Shown here one piece after another: positions 37,453 to 64,000 of a stretch of DNA of 64,000 bases. The DNA is from Owenia fusiformis. Lineage: Eukaryota; Annelida; Polychaeta; Sabellida; Oweniidae. The position numbers and the translations under genes are program-made. The stretch lies in the NCBI GenBank assembly GCA_903813345.2, contig CAIIXF020000011.1, positions 1,698,571-1,762,570 on the forward strand. Reading direction: 5' to 3'. Numbering within the stretch: position 1 is the stretch's first letter; every line of letters starts with the position of its first letter. The notes below the pieces were generated by a model. It was not told the DNA's origin, searched no databases, and saw only the letters and a list, made by a program, of their open reading frames with translations.

Positions 37453-40400
37453 GTAATACTACAAGAAAAAATTGCTATAGCATTTCTATTGGTTTTGAGG
37501 TATTTTTCTATCTACCTTCTTTTTTGTTTCAGTTAATGCATGCCCTGAAACGTGGTTCAACTTGGGGAGATTCATAGATATAAATAATTTGGTTTGTTAA
37601 CCGAATATGTTATTGTTTCAGTTCACGGAGTTCCTGGTACGTGGTCAGCTTGGGGAGCGTGTTCTAAAACCTGCGGAGATGGAGAGCAAACTCGCACAAG
37701 AGCATGTGACAACCCAACCCCAGCTCATGGTGGAAGCCAATGCAATTCAAGTGATCTGACGGACACACGGTCCTGTAATGATGCAGAATGCCCCGGTATG
37801 AAATGATAGTTCTAGGGAAAGATCAAGGCGTATGCAGTCATCCATAGATATAAATAATTTGATTTATCAACCGAATATGTTTTTTGTTTCAGAAAATGGA
37901 GCCCCTGGTACGTGGTCAGCTTGGGGAGCGTGTTCTGCAACCTGCGGAGGTGGAGGACAAACTCGCACAAGAGAATGTGACAACCCAGTCCCAGCTCATG
38001 GAGGAAGCCAATGCGATACAAGTGATCTGACGGAAACACGGTCCTGTAATAATGCAGAATGCCCCGGTATGGAATGATAGTCGAGGGAAAGATCATAGCG
38101 TATGCACACACTCATAGATATAAAGAATTTGATTACTTAGCCGAATATGTTTTTGTTTCAGTAAATGGAGCCCCTGGTACGTGGTCAGCTTGGGGAGCGT
38201 GTTCTAAAACCTGCGGAGGTGGAGAGCAATCTCGCACAAGAGCATGTGACAACCCAGCCCCAGCTAATGGTGGAAGCCAATGCAATTCAAGTGATCTGAC
38301 GGACACGCAGTCCTGTAATGATGCAGAATGCCCCGGTATGATAGTACTATGAAAAAGATCATAGCGTTTGCAGTCATTTCATGGAGATAAAGAATTTGAT
38401 TTATTAACCGAATATGCTTTTGTTTCAGTAAATGGAGCCCCTGGCACTTGGTCAGCTTGGGGAGCGTGTTCTACAACCTGCGGAGAAGGACAGCAGATTC
38501 GCACACGAGCATGCGACAACCCAGTCCCAGCTTACGGAGGAAGTTTGTGCAGTTCAATTGAATTGACGGACACACGGTCCTGTAATGATGCAGAATGCCC
38601 CGGTATGATTTGACAGAATTTGGGAATTTATTATAGCCTATGAAGTAATTCATAGAAATAAATAATTCGATTAAAAAATGTGATTTTGTTTTAGTTCACG
38701 GAGGTCCTGGTACGTGGTCAGCTTGGGGAGCGTGTTCTAAATCCTGCGGAGATGGAGAACAAACTCGCACAAGAGCATGTGACAATCCAGCCCCAGATAA
38801 TGGAGGAAGCCATTGCAATTCAAGTGATCTGACGGACACACGACCCTGTAATGATGCAGAATGCCCAGGTATGCCTTGACAAAATTGGGAATTTATTATA
38901 CCATATAAAGTAGTTCATAGAAATAGATGATTCGATTAAAAATGCGATTTCAGTTGCCTGGGGGGGGACATACTTTCGGGACACCCTGTTTACATGATAC
39001 GTCAAACCAAAATATGAATTTTTTAGCACCTTTAATTAAAGTAGATCCCTTATAATTAATGTTAATTACTGGATCATGAAACTATAACCCTGCACTATTT
39101 ATGCATTTATAGTGCCACTACATTATTGCTTAAATCTAGTATGTACTTAGAGAGTTGCATTTTTGAGAGTGATTACCAGCTGAATACATTTAAACACAAA
39201 ACTCGTAAAATATTAAAACCTAACTAGATTATTAGATATAATTACAGTAACAAAAATATGAAAAGCTTGGTATTTCAAGTCTCTTAATTGGTAAATCCTT
39301 TATTTCCCGTTTGAGCGAAATAAAGACGAATTAATTTGTGATTTATTTTTCTTACTCTTAATCACCAGCAAAATTAGCTTGAGATAAAAGAGAAATAAAA
39401 AGCGCATCATGATTTTTGATCTTTGTCGGTTTCAAATTGGGATAATCCTAATTTTCCTATTACAAATTAGACCCCAAGCCTGGGAGGGAGTTCGGGGGTT
39501 TCGAGTGAAGTCATCTCGATGAAAAGGAATTGTTTAATTATATGACAGAAGCAGCTTACGAGTTTGATGATAAATTCTTAATTTTTAAAGAGATAGCAAT
39601 ATGATTTAAATGGAATGATGTGAAATAAGGGATCTGCATAAAATCCCTATAAGGACGGGAGATGAAATAAAGAATGAGCGATTGCACTGAGCGAACACTT
39701 ATTAACCTGTTTTTATTAGCCTAAATGTGCAGTTTATAACATATATAATAGGAACTGGCGAACCTAATCAATTGTCACAAGACCGTACAAAACAAATCAC
39801 AAAGTAAATGTATAAAATATGCCTTACTCAATTTATTATTAGAGAGCTTTTGATATAAGTTATTTTGAATTCGTATACGCAAACCTACTTGTACAAGTCA
39901 GGTATAGCACTGAGGAGGAACTCTGGAATCACAACAGAATATTCGGCAAGTATGTAATTCGTGAGTTCCGCTTTCAAAATACGATGACAACTAGAGTTTA
40001 ATTCTGCCATTGCTAGGATATTCACAAATCAATTCCCTCGATTAGGACACATTTCTCACGAAATGTACTTTCCTGGTTTCTTTATTTGAGAAACCTTCCT
40101 CCTAGTGGTTTTGCGTCATTTAAAAATTAAAGTTGCAATATAAGTTGGGCTGAAAATGTATATCAAAAACTTTCTGTTATATTACATACAGTATTACAAC
40201 ATGATTTCAGATTCAGGTGATTAATATTCACTTATTATATGTTTCTTATTTATGTAATTGTAGTTACCGTTGGAAAACTAAAAAGCAGCCCAATTGTTGC
40301 AAAGAGACAGCTGCAGTCGAGCTATATATGGGATATCGCAGTAACATCAGGTGGACATATTGTGGTAACAAGTGGAGCCGGCACAAAGATATATGCCAGT

Positions 40401-43527: not shown

Positions 43528-43563
<36 letters not shown>

Positions 43564-43751
43564 ATCATTGAAGTCCAAGACTCAATGCGAGTTTTGCACA
43601 CACACACACATTGTTACCATTTAAGTCCAAGACTCAATGCGAGTTTTGCACACACACACACATTGTTACCATTTAAGTCCAAGACTCAATGCAAGTTTTG
43701 CACACACACACACATTGTTACCATTTAAGTCCAAGACCCAATGCGAGTTTT

Positions 43752-43811
<60 letters not shown>

Positions 43812-44255
43812 TGGTACCATTTAAGTCCAAGACTCAATGCGAGTTTTACACACACACACACACATTGTTACCATTTAAGTCCAAGACTCAATGCGAGTTT
43901 TACACACACACACGCATTGTTACCATTTAAGTCCAAGACTCAATGCGAGTTTTGCACACACACACACACACACATTGTTAACATTTAAGCCCAAGACTCA
44001 GTGCAAGTTTTACACACACACGCACATTGTTACCATTTAAGTCCAAGACTCAATGCGAGTTTTACACACACACACACATTGTTACCATTTAAGTCCAAGA
44101 CTCAATGCGAATTTTGCACACACACACACACATTGTTACCATTTAAGTCTGAGACTCAATGCGAGTTTTGCACACACACACACACACACACACATTGTTA
44201 CCATTTAAGTCCAAGACTCAATGCAAGTTTTACACACACACACACACACATTGTT
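43508..44255. repeat. Minisatellite with (CA)n cores, about 13 units
   Basis: Units of about 50-95 bp: AAGTCCAAGACTCAATGCGA, GTTTT(G/A), a CA run, then TTGTTACCATTT. Duplicon B has one unit at about 54903. Confidence 0.9.
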
Positions 44256-47724: not shown

Positions 47725-50700
47725 ATGGACACAACTCTAATATCATCACTTGTTTCGATTACCCTGCTTTACATAGGACTTGACTGTATTAAAGAAACGA
47801 GCAGCTATGGAGTCTCTTATAAGCATTACCGAAACAATGGTCACTTTTACAACTCTTCGAGAATCAGTGAATCGGTTATGGAGTTCCGCCGATATGATAT
47901 GGAAATCGCAGCCGTTCAATGCTTATTAACGTGTGGAAAGCAAACTTGCAGTCCGAAGTGCGTCGCAGTGAATTTTAACACCAAAAATGCAACTTGCGAT
48001 CTTCTCTCCACACAACCAAACTCAACTTCTGATCCTCATATCATACGTGATGATGAGTGGGTTCTCTACACAGAAAAACGTCTAAAAGGTATACTACAAG
48101 AAAAAATTGCTTTAGCTTTTTCATTGGTTTTGAGGTATTTTTCTTTCTACCTTCTTTTTTGTTTCAGTTAATGGAGGCCCTGGAACGTGGTTCAGCTTGG
48201 GGAGATTCATATATATAAATAATTTGATTTATTTACCGAATATGTTATTGTTTCAGTAAATGGAGCCCCTGGTACGTGGTCAGCTTGGGGAGCATGTTCT
48301 TCAACTTGCGGAGGTGGAGAGCAAACTCGTACAAGAGCATGTGACAACCCAGCCCCAGCTCATGGAGGAAGCCAATGCAATTCCAGTGATCTGACGGACA
48401 CACGGTCTTGTAATGATGCAGAATGCCCCGGTATGATTTGACAGAATTAGGAATTTATTTTTAGCGTATGAAGTCATTCAAAGAGATAAATAATTTGATT
48501 TAAAATGCGATTTTGTTTCAGTTAACGGAGGTCCTGGTACGTGGTCAGCTTGGGGAGCGTGTTCTACAACCTGCGGAGATGGAGAGCAAACTCGCACAAG
48601 AGCATGTGACAACCCAGCCCCAGCTTATGGAGGAAGCCAATGCAATTCAAGTGATCTGACGGGCACACGGCCCTGTAATGATGCCGAATGCCCCGGTATG
48701 ATTTGACAGAATTAGGAATTTATCATAGCGTATGAAGTCATTCATAAAGGTAAAGAATTTGATTTATTAACCGAATATGTTTTTGTTTCAGTAAATGGAA
48801 CCCCTGGTACGTGGTCAGCTTGGGGAGCGTGTTCTACAACCTGCGGAGATGGTGAGCAAACTCGCACAAGGGCATGTGACAACCCAGCCCCAGCTCATGG
48901 AGGAAGACAATGCAATTCAAGTGATCTGACGGACACACGGTCTTGTAATGATGCAGAATGTCCCGGTATGATTTGACAGAATTAGGAATTTATTATAGCG
49001 TATGAAGCCATTCAAACAGATAACTATTTTGATTTAAAATGCGATTTTGTTTCAGTTAACGGAGGTCCTGGTTCGTGGTTAGCTTGGGGTGCATATTTAT
49101 AGCCTTTCGGGATGGAGAGCAACCTCGAACAAGAGCATCTGACATCCCACTGAAATACAGAATTCTATTATTTCGACTGAATGTATTTTGTTTAAGTTGA
49201 CAGAGTTCCTGGTACGTGATCAGCTCGGAGAGCGTGTTTTGTAGCTTACAGAGATGGTGGGCAAACTCGCACAAGAGCATAAAACAACACATTGGAATAG
49301 AAAATTATATTATATTACCTGAATAATGATGTTTTAGCTTTAGTTAACGGGGTCCTTTACGAAGTCAGTTTGGCAAGCGTGTTATACAACCTCCGGATAT
49401 GGTGGGCAAACTCGCACAAGAGCATAAAACAACCACTGAAATAGAGAAGTCAATTAGATCAACTAAATATATTTAAGTTTTAGTTAGCGAGGGTCCTTTA
49501 CATGGTCAGCTTCGGGAGCGTGTTTTGCAACCTGCACAAATGTATTTTGTTTTAGTTGACGGAGTTCCTGGTTCGTGGTCAGTTCGGAGAGCGTGTTCTG
49601 TAGCTTACAGATATGGTGGGCAAACTCGCACAAGAGCATAAAACAACACATTGGAATAGAAAATTATATAATATTTACTGAATAATGATGTTTTAGCTTT
49701 AGTTAACGGGGTCCTTTACGAAGTCAGTTTGGCGAGCGTGTTATACAACCTCCGGATATGGTGGGCAAACTCGCACAAAAGCATAAAACAACCATTGAAA
49801 TAGAGAAGTCAATTAGATCAACTAAATATGTTTTAATTTTAGTTAGCGAGGGTCCTTTACATGGTCAGCTTCGAGAGTGCTGCAACTCCCACAAGACCAT
49901 AAATCAACCCGTTGAGAATTCGATCGTCTCAACTGAATATGTTTTTGTTTCAGTTAACGGAGGTCTTGGCACGTGGTCAGTTTTGCGAGCGTGCTCTACA
50001 ACCTCCGGATATGGTAGACAAACTCGAAGATGGGCATAAAACAACACGTTGAAATTCGATTATTTCAACTAAATAATTATCTTTTAGTTTAACCTGTTTT
50101 GTAAACTGTTGAGATGATGGACAAACTCGCACAAGAACATAAAAACACATTTGAATAGAGAATTGTGATGCTTTAGTTTTAGTTAACGGGGTCCTTTACG
50201 AAGTCAGCTTGAAGAGCATGTTCTGCAAAGTGGAGATGGAGTGCAAACTCGCACAAAAACATAAAACAACTAACTGAAATAGAGAATTCGATTATTTTAA
50301 CTGAACATGTTTTTGTTTTACATTTATTTGAATCGTTATTTTCGTGACATGCACTAAAAATATAATTATCAAAAGAATCGGCTTTGCTCAGAAATACGTC
50401 AAAAAGATAATCTTTCATTCCACTTGTTACAAAAAAGTTTTCAGCACTTTCTTTGCACCTTTATTTTCTACACATCGAATCCTATCCAGAAATTGGTTAA
50501 ATTTATCGCCATAAACATATTTAGTCATCTTTTGGTCCCTTGACCTTTCTTATACTCGATTCTTAAAATCCTGCCAAATACGCCAAATTGCCATGTTTCT
50601 AGACATATGGTCACCTCAATTGATACAATGTAAAAATTTGGGAGATTGATTGACATGTGTCAGATGTATACCAATCAACGTAACTTTGGAAGACCTTTCC

Positions 50701-52729
50701 AATGATATATCACACTTGGTATCAAATATCTTGGTTTTGGCTGTAGAGGGGGGACGGAACTTATTTGACACCCTTGCTGCATTGTGTCCAGTCCATAAGT
50801 AAATGTCTGAATCTTCTCATAACTACAGTTACCCTCAATACATGTTCCCTTCTCTATTTCCATCTTTGAATACTGAGCAATGCCTAACCAGAAGCTATTG
50901 GAGTCATCATAAAGCAATGTATCTCAATGCATGAATAAATATAACTTGTGTAACTGTTTCCCCATTCCTTTTCATGTATTCTATCAATGTTTTCTTCTCC
51001 AACTTTATTATTTGGAGCCATATTCCAGTATTTCCTGAAGTCATGAGAACTTTGATAATGTCATGAAATCAGGTGATTTGTTTAAGATGTTTGAAGAGTA
51101 TTTTCTCGGTCATTCTTTGACATAACCAAAGAGAACACGATGGGAAATATTGAGATAAGATTTACATTTGCCATAAGAACAATACTAGAAATTGTTTAAA
51201 TTTGAGTTGACAGTTTATGTAAGTTATATTTAAAATCCCTGGACTGGAGATGAAATAAGGAATGAGCGATTGCACTGAGCGAACACTTATTAACCCTTTT
51301 TATTAGCCTAAATGTGCAGTTTATAACATATTTAATAGGAACTGGCGAACCTAATCAATTGTCACAAGACCGTACAAAACAAATCACAAAGTAAAGGTAT
51401 GAAATATGCCATTTTTCAATTTATTATTCGAGAGCTTTCAATATAAGTAATTTTGAATACGTATACGCAAACCTGTACTTGTACAAGTCAGGGATAGCAC
51501 TTGGGAGGGAACTCTTGAATCGATGATAGGGTACTTTCATCCTTCAAATCACAACAGAATATTCGGCAAGTACGTAGTTCGTGAGTTCCGCTTTCAAAAT
51601 ATGATGACAACTAGAAATTAATTCTGTCATTGCTAGGATATTCACAAATCAATTCCCTCGATTTGGACACATTTCTCACGAAATGTACTTTCCTGGTTAC
51701 TTTATTTGAGAAACCTTCCTCCCCAGTGGTTTTGCGTCATTTAAAAGTTAAAATTGCAATATAGGTTGGGCTCCCCAGTGGTTTTGCGTCATTTAAAAGT
51801 TAAAGTTGCAATATAAGTTGGGCTGAAAACGTATATCAAAAGCTTTCTGTTATATTACAAACAGTATTACAACATGATTTCGTGATTCAGATGATTAATA
51901 TTCACTTATTATATGTTTCTTATTTTATGCGATTACAGTCACTGTCGGACCCCTAAAAAGCAGCCCAATTGTTTCAAAGAGTCAGCTGCAGTCAAGCTAT
52001 ATACTGGATCTTGAAGTAACAGCAAGTGGACATATTGTGGCAACAGGTGGAACAGGATCCACAACAAAGATATATGCCAGTGATTATAGTCTCGTGAAAG
52101 ATATCGGCCAATCATTCACTCGTGTTACAGTAACAAGTGATGATCAAGTAGTATTCACTGATGGGTCTAGCACAATCTACTTCTATACAGCAGACGGCAA
52201 TCATATACGCGACATACCAGTCACAGGGTCTACATATCAACTACGTGGTATTACTACACTATCTACTGGTCAGTTGGTTGTATGCGATGGCAACACAGAC
52301 AACGTGTTAATTGTCAAACAAGATACAGGGAATGCAACACCACTCTCTGCTTCTGGTACGTTTGATTTGCCTTTCGATGTGACAACTAACAGCCAAGGAG
52401 TAGTTATAGTGAGTGACGTTAACGAACATTCTATAAAGGGATTGGACCAGGATGGTCAAGTACTCTTCAGTTATGGTACAGAAGGATCAGGGGAGGGGCA
52501 GATGAAATATCCACGTGGTGTCGATACAGATAAGGAGGACTACATTGTGGTAGCAGACGCAAGCAACCACAGAGTACTACTACTCACCCCTGATGGCATG
52601 TTCCATAGTTACCTCCTAACAGGGAGTGATGGCTTGTACTACCCACGTGCTGTTTGTATAATCCAAGACGGACATTTATTGGTTGGGGATAACCATGGAC
52701 AATTATTCACTATCACATACAGAGAATAA
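47725..52729 (+). CDS. Gene B: secreted PAN-like / TSP1 x3 / NHL-propeller protein
   Basis: Five exons: 47725-48088, 48257-48430, 48522-48695, 48792-48965, 51939-52729, all joined in phase 1. They give 558 residues: signal peptide, PAN-like head (1-121), three TSP1 repeats (122-295) and the NHL-type propeller (296-558). It matches gene A closely in exons and introns. The 3-kb last intron holds about ten decayed TSP1 exons. The last exon opens at 51939 after GATTACAG and reads VTVGPLKSSPIVSKSQLQ, in frame with the rest. Role as for gene A: extracellular, ligand unknown. Confidence 0.87.
48168..48207 (+). pseudogene. Truncated TSP1 exon relic, gene B
   Basis: Counterpart of 37533-37572, with the same junction from CAGCTTGGGG into intron sequence AGATTCAT. 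Confidence 0.65.
48257..48965 (+). CDS. Gene B exons 2-4: three TSP1 repeats
   Basis: Three 174-nt symmetric exons with intact acceptors (TTTCAG) and donors (CCCCG|GTATGA or CCCG|GTATGA). Confidence 0.92.
49056..50290 (+). pseudogene. Row of about ten decayed TSP1 exons
   Basis: Fragments start near 49056, 49196, 49343, 49483, 49556, 49702, 49842, 49951, 50085 and 50183. Each keeps pieces such as GTTAACGG(G)GTCCT, GGTGGGCAAACTCGCACAAG and AGCATAAAACAAC, but most have lost the middle Cys codons and the donor and carry in-frame stops. About 365 bp holding several relics (49190-49545) is itself repeated at 49553-49905. Confidence 0.75.
50291..51938 (+). other. Rest of gene B last intron
   Basis: No exon seen. 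About 53 bp (CTCCCCAGTGGTTTTGCGTC...) is tandemly doubled near 51722-51830. From about 51240 it matches gene A's intron. Confidence 0.45.
51939..52729 (+). CDS. Gene B last exon: NHL-type propeller
   Basis: 263 residues after the split codon, with repeats [20 protein letters not shown] and GVVIVSDVNEHSIKGLDQDG. The stop codon is followed by the same AGGTAAAT donor-like motif as in gene A. Confidence 0.88.
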
Positions 52730-59196: not shown

Positions 59197-59707
59197 AGTA
59201 GGAGCATTACAGTAGTGATGTGAACAGCAGGGAAACATATGAACATGAAATGTTTTTCAAAAATGTATGAAAAACACACAGCTGCTCCGCAGAACGCGCG
59301 TACATGTTGCTATGGCAACTATACATTAAATATATTTGTGTCGAGTAATAAATGTAATATAGTAAAATGAAGCTAACAACTTGATCTTTAATTTGTTTGA
59401 ATTTCATATAGTTTCCATATCAAATAAAAAATTTAGAGCATAATTATCATTAAATTAAAAAATACAGTTATAGTATATAATGGTATCACAAGTGTTCAAA
59501 ATGATCAATCTTGCATACATGTATAGCGATCAATACACCATAAAATTCTAAGAATAAAATATATTTGGTAAGCAATTACTTACAATATCTGTAAAAAATA
59601 AACACTTATCATGCGATGCCAAAATCAACAAAGGGTCTATTTACGTCACATCATAATTTATACTTTGTAAGTTACTTATAATTACTACATCCGCCATTTG
59701 TAAAATG

Positions 59708-59740
59708 TATACAATTTCAATTTCGAAAGGTTTTCAGTCA
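59708..59740 (+). promoter_or_regulatory. Core promoter of gene C
   Basis: TATACAA at 59708 and an initiator TTCAGTCA (A at 59736) exactly 28 bp on; about 43 nt to the ATG. Confidence 0.55.
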
Positions 59741-59778
59741 AAAGTAGTAGAAGAATTTGCGCAGAAATTTATTTGGAG

Positions 59779-62700
59779 ATGAAGATGTTATTAAAAACGT
59801 GTTTTTTATTTTTTTCCTGTTTCGTTTATTTTATTGAGACAAATACTGCACACGTTTCTATTAGCCTTTCGAAGCAAAGACCATTATACGTGACGTATAG
59901 GAAGTATCGTCATACCGAAAGATTAGACAGTCCGTGGAAGTCGTTCAGTGTTCTTACAAATGCGAGATGTGCAGCTGCGTGTAATAGCAATCCAGAAGCA
60001 TGCATGTCATATAACTTGAGAAAAATTGAGGATAGGACCTATCGGGCTGTATGTGAATTAAATGGACCAAGTAAATCACTCCCGACGGATACAACAGATG
60101 ATGTGGACTACTTTGAAAAAGGTTGGTACATCTAGTAATAATGTTATATCATTTTTAGATAGTCCAAATGTGAATACTTCCCTCCATAAATTTAGTGACC
60201 GTAAGAGTCTCCATTTGGATCATATATTAAAAGAATCGGTGTGTAAATTCAGAATTTCTCTTACTCTTGTAAAACATATTTGCTTTTTGTTTTGTCATGA
60301 CCGATATTGTTAGATGCGAAAGTTAATGTGAAGTTGTGGCTTTCGGGATTTAAAATTCTGATTCTAAATATGGACTTAGTCTTGAGTTAAAAATCAACAT
60401 TTCAGATCATCCCTGGCCCCATCCCATAAATGGTCAATCAGACTATGTATTTGCGCGTTGCAAACTTAGGTTGATCTAACGATGAATAGAACTTACTTCG
60501 GGCTGAATATGGCTGTCTCACAGTCTCATATCATTTTCGGACCTGACTCTTTAAGGTTATTTTATTGGTGAATTCTTGTTTTTTCATCTATGACGTTATA
60601 TCTAAATCACTACACCATGCATGGTAAAAACTTTTTGACAGAGTTTGCATTTAATTTTGATAATTGGTGCTTTAATTATTTATTTATCTATTTGTTTTAT
60701 TTATTTATCCACTCATTCATTTATTTATTGATCTATTAATTCATCATTTTTGTAAGGGAATTCCATTTCACATCCTCAAAGATGAACGGAACATCGATAA
60801 AATCAATGTTTTATTATACAAATATGAACTCCATTTAAAATCAAACGAACTTATCCAATGTTATCAAATGCCTTTCAAATGTCAAAGCTATTGGATGAAA
60901 TTAGTTATTTAGTATTTCGAGTCCAGACTTTCGTCCCTAAAACATATGGACTTGGGAGATCGTTAAGGTTCAACTTGTTGCTTTATATTTCCGCTGTTGC
61001 TCTTATGGTGCTTAATTTTTAACGTCACGCTTTTTCCTATTTCCAATTCTAATTGTAATCCAATGTTCAATGCTAGAAAGGAAATTAATCAAATTAGAAA
61101 CATGTTTAATGATTACACCAATTTCGTGAGCCATGTTTTTTTCTGAGCACTCATTGTTTTGATTGATAGTTAATGTATCCTGTCTCAATTAAAGAACTGT
61201 AATATTGATTGAAGTCTATGTTAAACAATACATATAATTGTCACCGAAAAGACTTCTCAGACCTAGAAATCAATGTTAAATTGCTAAACCTGAACATGCA
61301 AATATGGGGTTAACAAGAACGTATTTAACAACGTATTTAACAAAAACAAATATTTTGAATATGTCTACACAAAAAACAAATGGAAAATACTTAAATGGCC
61401 ACCTAAAAAGTGAATATCTGAAAGTACAAGTCATAAGAAAGCAAATCCCCCAAAACACATTTGAAAACTTAATGTTAGAGAAAATAGCACAACCAGCCAA
61501 TGATAAATCAAAAAAAATCGAACATACAATAAAGTATGAGAGAGATCTGGCTCAATGATAACCGTATATACGTGACGTTATACGTGAATATGAATAGTGT
61601 GTTTCGCAACAAAGAATATTTATGTGTATATATTTGAATACTTGATTGATTGAAAATAAAAAGTTTTATTGAAGATTGGATACTCTTTGACTTATACGAA
61701 TCATCCCAGACCAATAGTAATGTGTAAACAAAATGAAGATTTACTCAGGTACACACAACGTTATATAATGAATGGCTTCTTATAGATGGCTCTATAGTTT
61801 GTTATTTAACTGATGTTGTTCACTGGGCTACTGTTTAGATCAAATCAAATTTTTTAATACGTGTGTATGGACACCAGCCTACTGCCATTTACATCTCAAT
61901 ACGTTTTTAAGTGATCTCGTTAACTAGTTTACTGTTATCATCTAATCAATTTGTTGCTATACTGTTGTAGGAGTACCAGACTACTGTTATCATCTAATAA
62001 ATTTGTTGTTATACTGTTATAGGAGCACGTAACTAATGTTATCATCAAAACGATTTGTTGTTATACTGTTGTAGGAGTACCTGACTACTGTTATCATCAA
62101 ATCAATTTGTTATTATACTGCTGTAGGAGTACCAGACTTCTGTTATCATCAAATCAATTTGTTGTAATGCTGTTGTAGTAGCACTAGACTACTGTTATCA
62201 TCAAAACGATTTGTTGTTATACTGTTGTATGAGTACCAAACCACTGTAATCAGCAAATTAATTTATTGTTATACTGCTGTAGGAGTACCAGACTTCTGTT
62301 ATCATCAAATCAATTTGTTGTAATACTGTTGTAGTAGCACTAGACTACTGTTATCATCAAATCAATTTGTGGTTATACTGTTGTAGGAGTACCAAACTAC
62401 TGTTATCATCTAATCAATTTGTTGTTATACTATTGTAGGAGCACTAGACTACTGTTATCATCAAATCAATTTGTTGTTATACTGTTATAGGAGCACTGAA
62501 CTACTGTTATCATCAAATCAATTTGTTGTTATACTGTTATAGGAGCACTGAACTACTGTTATCATCAAATCAATTTGTTGTTATACTGTTGTAGGAGTAC
62601 CAGACTACTGTTATCATCTAATCAATTTGTTGTTATACTATTGTAGGAGCACTGGACTACTGTTATCATCAAATCAATTTGTTTTTATACTGTTGTAAGA

Positions 62701-63652
62701 GCACTAGACTACTGTTATCATCAAATTAATATGTTGTTATACTGTTGTAGGAGCACTGGACTACTGTTATCATCAAAGCAATTTGTTGTTATACTGTTGT
62801 TGGACTACTAGACTACTGTTATCATCAAATCAATTTGTTGTTATACTGCTGTAGGAGTACCAGACTACTGTTATCATCGTATCAATTTGTTTTTATACTG
62901 TTCTAGGAGCACAAAACTAATGTTATCATCAAATCAATTTGTTGTTATACTGTTGTAGTAGCACTATCTTATTGTTTTCATTCAATAAAGTTGTTGCTTA
63001 TACTGTTGTAGGGGCACCAGACTACTGCTATTATCAACATAATGGTGAAGTTAATGTAGGTTCTGTGGACACATTTCGAGCTCAGTGTAGGAATGGATGG
63101 TTGGTTTTTGCTAATCGGTACAATGGATCGGTAGACTTCAACAAAAATTGGACAGATTACAAAAATGGATTTGGTTCCATTGACGGGGAATACTTCCTTG
63201 GTTTTGACAAAATACTCTCTATCTTAATACAAGGAAGTCACAAACTCCGTGTTGAGCTTACAACCTGGCCAGACAAAGGAAATGTTATGAAGTATGCTGA
63301 ATATGGTAGCTTCAACCTAACAGGAGAGAACGATTATTACAGACTGAGTGTATCGGATCATTCTGGAACTGTCGCTGATATGATGGGACCTAGTAATGGC
63401 AAACAATTTACTACTGATGATGAAGATCGTGATGAGATGGTTGGAAATAATTGCGCATCAATAAAGAGGGGCCCTTGGTGGTATATATCATGCGCACCTG
63501 CTAATCTTTTTGGACCATATATGAACACATCGTCTTGTTTTTACTCGGGTAAATGCATCTATTTTCATAACTGGCCTGATGTGATAGGTGATCCGGATAA
63601 TACCTGGTACTCTTTCAAGGAAATGAGAATGATGCTTCAACCATCAGTTTAA
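59779..63652 (+). CDS. Gene C: secreted PAN-like / fibrinogen-related (FReD) protein
   Basis: Two exons, 59779-60121 and 63012-63652, join in phase 1 to give 327 residues. A signal peptide (about 1-24, MKMLLKTCFLFFSCFVYFIE) is followed by a PAN-like head with Cys 64, 68, 75 and 92. The FReD (116-327) keeps WLVFANRYNGSVDF, the DDEDRDEM calcium-site-like loop and NCASIKRGPWWYISC. FReDs act as lectins or adhesive ligands in other animals; the target here is unknown. The donor at 60122 (GTTGGT) is weak and an unseen small exon cannot be excluded. The ATG at 59779 begins a good signal peptide. Confidence 0.82.
60122..61925 (+). other. Gene C intron, first part
   Basis: AT-rich, with TTTATTTATT runs near 60675-60735. 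No exon or element recognised. Confidence 0.4.
61926..63000 (+). repeat. 52-bp tandem array made of splice-acceptor/exon-start copies, ~20 units
   Basis: Unit reads ACTGTTATCATCAAATCAAT, TTGTTGTTATACTGTTGTAG, then GAGTACCAG. The TACTGTTGTAG-G(A/G)G(T/C)ACCAGACTACTG core equals the real acceptor and start of the FReD exon at 63001-63028. Confidence 0.92.
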
Positions 63653-64000
63653 ATTCTTAAATATATTATTACATATGTTAAGAGATAAGCAGTTGGAATA
63701 CATGGAATTATGTTAAGAAATCAGCAGTCTGAATGCATAAGTATTCAAATGTGCTACTAGTATTGTTTTTTGTTTTGTTTCATTTATTTACAATTACAAT
63801 TGTAACATTGCTGTCTTAGCGCCAGGGGTAAAAAATGCATTAAACTCATGAATCCCAGGCTCTAAAATCGGTTGAAACCAAAGAATTTCGCATTTTTGCC
63901 AGCTTTTGACATTTTACTATACAACAGATGATGCTCATTTTAGTAAAATTAAAACTTTCTCGTCACTCTGGGTTTCAAGGTCATATCTGAGGTGACGAGA
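63653..64000. other. Downstream of gene C
   Basis: No gene. An inverted CTCGTCAC/GTGACGAG pair bounds the last 43 bases. Confidence 0.35.

Follow-up and report, generated by a model that had tools for sequence, protein, structure and literature searches.

The gene and the repeat at its last exon

The window, which is the whole stretch of 64,000 nucleotides that was analysed (contig C11, 1698571-1762570), contains a PAN-FReD gene of the animal lectin-like type, and a tandem array of 52-bp units adjoins the last exon of this gene. The following features are distinguished at the locus, with a slash marking exon borders:

59779..60121, + strand: exon 1, PAN domain with a signal-peptide-like start; open frame with a phase 1 end, GAAAAAG/GTTGGT
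60122..63011, + strand: phase-1 intron with the array at its 3' end, deduced from the joined frame
61798..61922, + strand: decayed 5' units in register 21-23, recognised by self-match; unit 22 starts at 61869
61923..62958, + strand: twenty 52-bp units, each with an acceptor copy, ending at 61970 + 52n (n = 0-19)
62959..63011, + strand: last intron segment, a diverged 53-bp unit with one inserted base and the true acceptor TTATACTGTTGTAG
62989..62990, + strand: candidate alternative acceptor AAAG/TTG, in phase with an open frame, scoring below the true site
63012..63652, + strand: exon 2, fibrinogen C-terminal domain (FReD), beginning with GAPDYCYYQHNGE and including the stop

Joining of 59779-60121 and 63012-63652 in phase 1 results in a single open frame that extends to the terminal stop, and the intron-exon border at 63012 is predicted from this frame and from homology. 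Exon 2 matches the Pfam family Fibrinogen_C (PF00147) with an E-value of 4.5e-44 and 151.4 bits against a curated cut-off of 22, while the match of exon 1 to PAN_1 (PF00024) lies barely above its cut-off (21.9 versus 21.4 bits). In several paralogues GTAAG is seen close to where the PAN match ends, and the donor AAG/GTTGGT appears weaker in comparison. Besides the true site, the only AGs near the border that are in phase with the open FReD frame are those ending at 62990 and 63020. The former belongs to the candidate AAAG/TTG, which lies 21 nt upstream of the true acceptor and would, if used, add the 7 codons VVAYTVV; the acceptor position inferred in the closest paralogues falls between this candidate and the true site.

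An earlier note on this DNA had described about twenty acceptor units directly before the FReD exon, each repeating the intron end together with the first codons of the following exon. This description holds. The number of units is 20, the extent is corrected to 61923-63037 with older units reaching back to 61798, and the repeat runs into the FReD exon, the first 26 bases of which constitute its last copy. For 61923-63037, TRF reports a period of 52, 21.4 copies and 85% matches. The true acceptor at 63012 follows after all 20 units. The AG is intact in 17 of these, while units 4, 6, and 15 (numbering runs from the exon backwards) have TTG, TAA, and TAT instead of TAG. Due to the extra base in the last intron segment, the true junction lies at a distance of 52k+1, rather than 52k, from unit k. 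A DNA search matched the array to its own 5' edge with 74% identity over 61798-62028, a span that also includes the first array units. The pattern TTATACTGTTGTAGG with at most one mismatch has 19 matches in the window, all within 61957-63012, compared to a mean of 0.00 in 100 shuffles.

Alignment of the unit consensus with the true junction yields a local score of 78 over 68 columns, and the exon side alone yields 33; the highest score among 2000 shuffles was 28 in both cases. Thus, the 52-bp unit holds both sides of the border. The array consists of variant units arranged head to tail within the range of roughly 10-100 bp that is typical of minisatellites, and, as is expected of a junction-derived repeat, its unit aligns with the intron side as well as the exon side of the predicted border.

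A long coding array was considered and rejected: only 2 of the 11 frames of at least 60 codons in 59600-63900 overlap the array, and they do so at its 3' edge only. One of them is the FReD frame, counted from 62921; the other, at 62978-63223, is on the minus strand. Two further arrays of the window, at 43543-44248 and 51719-51824, also have a period of 52, but their consensus is unrelated to the acceptor array and the shared period is probably a coincidence. At 37570-38938, a tandem array of about 270 bp consists of units that are each exon-like with their own intron ends (TTTGTTTCAG/ and /GTATG). Judging by these ends, the array looks like a whole-exon duplication, and its unit exon is presumably thrombospondin-type-1-like. 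Another tandem array of about 270 bp, known from its TRF row only, lies at 48248-49149.

Acceptor copies and their predicted products

The quality of the acceptors was assessed with a 20-base matrix made from 19 hand-picked paralogue acceptors of 12 families; these were drawn from 31 other FReD loci, 12 of which contributed no acceptor. Among 122 AGs between 60151 and 63060, the true acceptor ranks first in all four scorings. On the intron side alone it scores 8.66, compared to 8.15 for the best decoy (unit 2) and a decoy median of 6.3. With three exon bases, for which the matrix has few examples, the true site scores 10.5, an AG at the intron start 6.5, and the best decoy 6.4. Real paralogue acceptors, each scored with its own family left out, have a median of 5.0 and range from -1.9 to 8.5. 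This median is reached by 15 of the 17 AG-bearing decoys, by 4 of 63 AGs further upstream in the intron, and by none of the 34 other AGs in the array. Hence, the decoys are credible acceptor sites, with scores that are not independent of each other because the decoys copy one another. Some of them are identical to the true acceptor over the last 14 intron bases. The earlier suggestion that the array offers many acceptors is thus supported as to the presence of many acceptor-like sites before the true one.

The true site differs from the decoys further upstream. Between -45 and -21 it has 16 pyrimidines in 25 positions compared to 11-15 in the decoys, whereas from -20 to -4 the values are about equal (11 of 17 versus 10-13). 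The branch-point motif is yTnAy, and the true site has two candidates of this type (at -40 and -31); the strict motif occurs at branch-point distance in 8 of the 20 units.

None of the 20 units would yield a FReD protein when used as acceptor, since every one of them leads to a stop after 4 to 37 codons, including the 7 units that are in phase with the FReD frame, which stop within 34 codons. Frequently, the third frame runs into the TAG of a later acceptor copy and ends there. As the early stops are mostly the TAG of a later unit in one of three frames, they need no selection. Rotation of the frame as a generator of diversity is therefore rejected: the statement that the choice of unit rotates the frame is arithmetically true, but it is empty because 0 of 20 choices reach the open FReD frame. 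It was also overstated that most units can be read G-V-P-D-Y-C-Y; this reading is exact in 4 of 20 units (3, 8, 18, and 20), and the other readings include GALDYCY, GALNYCY, VALDYCY, and GVPDFCY. According to the predicted frames, transcripts spliced to a decoy would encode the PAN domain plus a short tail lacking the FReD, or would be degraded. The degradation route for such transcripts would be nonsense-mediated decay.

The acceptor A is kept in 19 and the G in 18 of the 20 units, and the columns outside the TAG are kept in a mean of 18.4 units. The 17 intact AGs observed compare with 17.0 expected, in a sample of 20 units that has little power against mild selection. Among the other columns, 21 of 49 are better kept than the average of the TAG. 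Thus, there is no sign among the 20 units that the AG is guarded better than its neighbouring columns.

These results bear on the possibility that the decoys, in competition with the true acceptor, draw a share of the transcripts into PAN-only or degraded products, so that the number of units sets the FReD output. Such a rheostat would fit with the 17 intact AGs, with the acceptor-like scores of 15 of these, with the position of the array directly against the FReD exon, and with early stops behind all decoys, as poison sites would have them. It is nevertheless unlikely. Retention of the AG equals the neutral expectation, the strict branch-point motif is present at a suitable distance in only 8 of 20 units, later-unit TAGs account for most of the stops without selection, and none of the 51 other FReD loci surveyed has such an array. 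The tuning of splicing proposed in the earlier note thus finds no positive support. Quite improbable is the more specific version of a ladder of poison acceptors with variable length, in which every additional unit would send transcripts either into decay or into a secreted product with PAN only; if true, the ladder would act as a fast-mutating dial on a recognition lectin.

FReD relatives and the origin of the array

The genome has at least 151 FReD matches including the present gene (scoring covered 150 of 299 candidates) as well as 52 matches to the PAN exon, likewise including the present gene, of which the 51 others have E <= 0.001. The matches are scattered over twelve large contigs and the small contig C138. 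The survey for arrays covered 51 of the at least 150 other FReD matches, mostly the best-scoring ones. In 31 loci, 1.5 kb upstream or, for two loci, the whole stretch from the PAN exon was searched, with the acceptor zone defined as 120 bases before to 30 bases after the start of the FReD match; none has an array with a period of at least 20 at the FReD exon start. The same is true for another 20 loci, each covered over about 600 bp upstream, for which six places in the ranking were skipped. In L005, an 11-bp AT-rich run lies in the acceptor zone. Two presumed neighbour PAN-FReD genes are located on the same contig, one with only a 4-bp repeat in the stretch examined, the other with a 162-bp array and other arrays, none of which is at the acceptor. 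The 162-bp array, with 7 copies and 92% matches, is found at L084:741-1882, between the PAN and FReD exons of this presumed neighbour and at a distance from its acceptor. In three FReD paralogues, long 9/18-bp repeats of the ACATCAGCTACACCAGC type occur upstream of the FReD exon, at L009:483-714, L012:194-393, and L013:389-738.

The 29-base unit pattern ATCAATTTGTTGTTATACTGTTGTAGGAG was searched with up to three mismatches in 498 Mb on 525 contigs, with counts being lower bounds; 20 of the 20 genome matches reported lie inside the array, and the reversed control gave 0. A DNA search of the genome with the whole array, in which very common words were skipped, found only the array itself and its own 5' edge. 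An array of this kind apart from a FReD exon, which according to the earlier note would mark it as a generic satellite, was looked for genome-wide and was not found.

In the closest FReD paralogues, L004, L006, and L010, TTAAG/CTACTGTA stands at the presumed acceptor and leads into a related exon start, with ...GTAGGGGTACCAGAC in L006 and L010. No array was found at the FReD exon start of these three loci. Because a related start is present even where the array is absent, the exon start is older than the array, and the exon seeded the array. Further evidence comes from the 5' edge. At three positions, +2, +17, and +21, relic unit 22 (from 61869) has the base of the true exon, in contrast to a different base common to all 20 units. 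In a tree, the true junction and relic 22 are split from the 20 units with a support of 99/95, a grouping that is less certain than this value implies, given the length of the relic's branch (0.4-0.5). The split was also seen when two more relic units were included. The three diagnostic bases and the tree point to an old duplication of the junction, followed by amplification between the two old copies. Together, the unique unit, the array-less paralogues with a related exon start, and the 5' relic support the earlier proposal that the array was cloned from the FReD exon's own acceptor.

The reverse order is very unlikely; in this case an intronic minisatellite would have existed first and the exon would have adopted its last unit as a start, so that the border moved into the array. 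In L004, L006, and L010, the inferred acceptor does lie about 9 nt further upstream than the true acceptor of the present gene, and from this offset the exon border may have shifted by three codons relative to these paralogues. Growth of the border out of a prior repeat is, however, at odds with the related exon start of the array-less paralogues, and no copy of the unit is reported from any other place in the genome.

The units differ pairwise by a mean of 12.8% (range 1.9-25%); in the stretch compared, 9 and 10 form the single pair without any difference. Divergence stays level as the distance between units grows (0.11-0.135 at lags 1-11, with the minimum at lag 3), and homogenisation depending on distance is therefore rejected. 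Units 18/15, 17/14, and 16/13 pair up, which points to duplication of a three-unit block. Secondary structure as a driver of expansion is also rejected, as the fold of three units is less stable than that of shuffles (z-value of 1.46, with 188 of 200 shuffles at least as stable). Tandem arrays can be mis-sized, and the evidence comes from one assembly of one individual; given the divergence among the units and the single identical pair, an assembly artefact or a wrong copy number is nonetheless highly improbable. Since the units differ enough, reads longer than about 1.2 kb should allow them to be placed. That a copy of a dispersed satellite landed beside the exon can practically be dismissed: tandem arrays are common in the window (35 TRF rows, some overlapping), but in the assembled 498 Mb no other copy was reported at up to three mismatches or by DNA similarity.

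Interpretation and comparison with known systems

Taken together, the array is likely to be an unselected minisatellite that was seeded by the gene's own intron-exon border and subsequently amplified, with decoys that are not maintained by selection. Initially, a segment of about 52 bp comprising the start of the FReD exon and the end of the preceding intron would have been duplicated. One of the two old copies would then have decayed at the 5' edge, while the other stayed as the true junction. Between them, a derived unit would have been amplified to 20 units, partly as three-unit blocks, presumably via slippage or unequal exchange. The gene can be expected to keep working because the local signal is best at its most 3' acceptor, and the segment around this acceptor holds the richest pyrimidine stretch as well as separate branch-point candidates. 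The decoys probably capture some splicing, and the predicted frames of the resulting transcripts stop within 37 codons; some leakage into truncated transcripts is thus probable. So many good sites could be assumed to burden the gene, and the fact that they persist leaves room for a function. Regarding the earlier note's interpretation as a whole, the origin from the FReD exon's acceptor and the many acceptor-like sites stand, the tuning of splicing does not, and of its two alternatives the by-product of slippage is favoured.

The arrangement is uncommon, and within an incomplete coverage of the literature no paper on an array of cloned acceptors was found by title or by the beginning of the abstract. 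It represents a natural experiment on the choice of 3' splice sites, with one true acceptor against 17 upstream near-copies. The locus could reveal which factor is decisive, be it position, branch point, or downstream exon, and whether such a repeat comes at a cost to the gene.

Several known systems resemble the array in part. Zhuo et al. are said to have described, in PNAS in 2007, introns that originate in tandem arrays or in exon segments that were duplicated. According to Lehmann et al. 2010 (PMC2891723), a new intron can arise from what lies between the copies of a duplicated proto-splice site. As in the tandem-duplication introns outlined there (PMC2891723), splice-site sequence was copied at the present locus and splice choices were created; in contrast to them, an existing acceptor was multiplied inside its own intron and no new intron is evident. 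Decoy exons and decoy splice sites in intron retention are similar in that non-productive sites could delay or divert splicing. Unlike these, the present sites copy the true one, and they are known here from sequence alone. In tandem acceptors of the NAGNAG type, several acceptors lie a few bases apart before one exon. The array likewise places several acceptors ahead of one exon, but with a spacing of 52 bp, about 20 sites, and no upstream copy that preserves the protein. The general class for comparison is that of minisatellites or VNTRs, with which the array shares head-to-tail units of 52 bp, variants, block duplications, and decayed edges. It differs from this class in that its unit spans an acceptor together with the first coding bases, and in that its last unit is the exon border itself.
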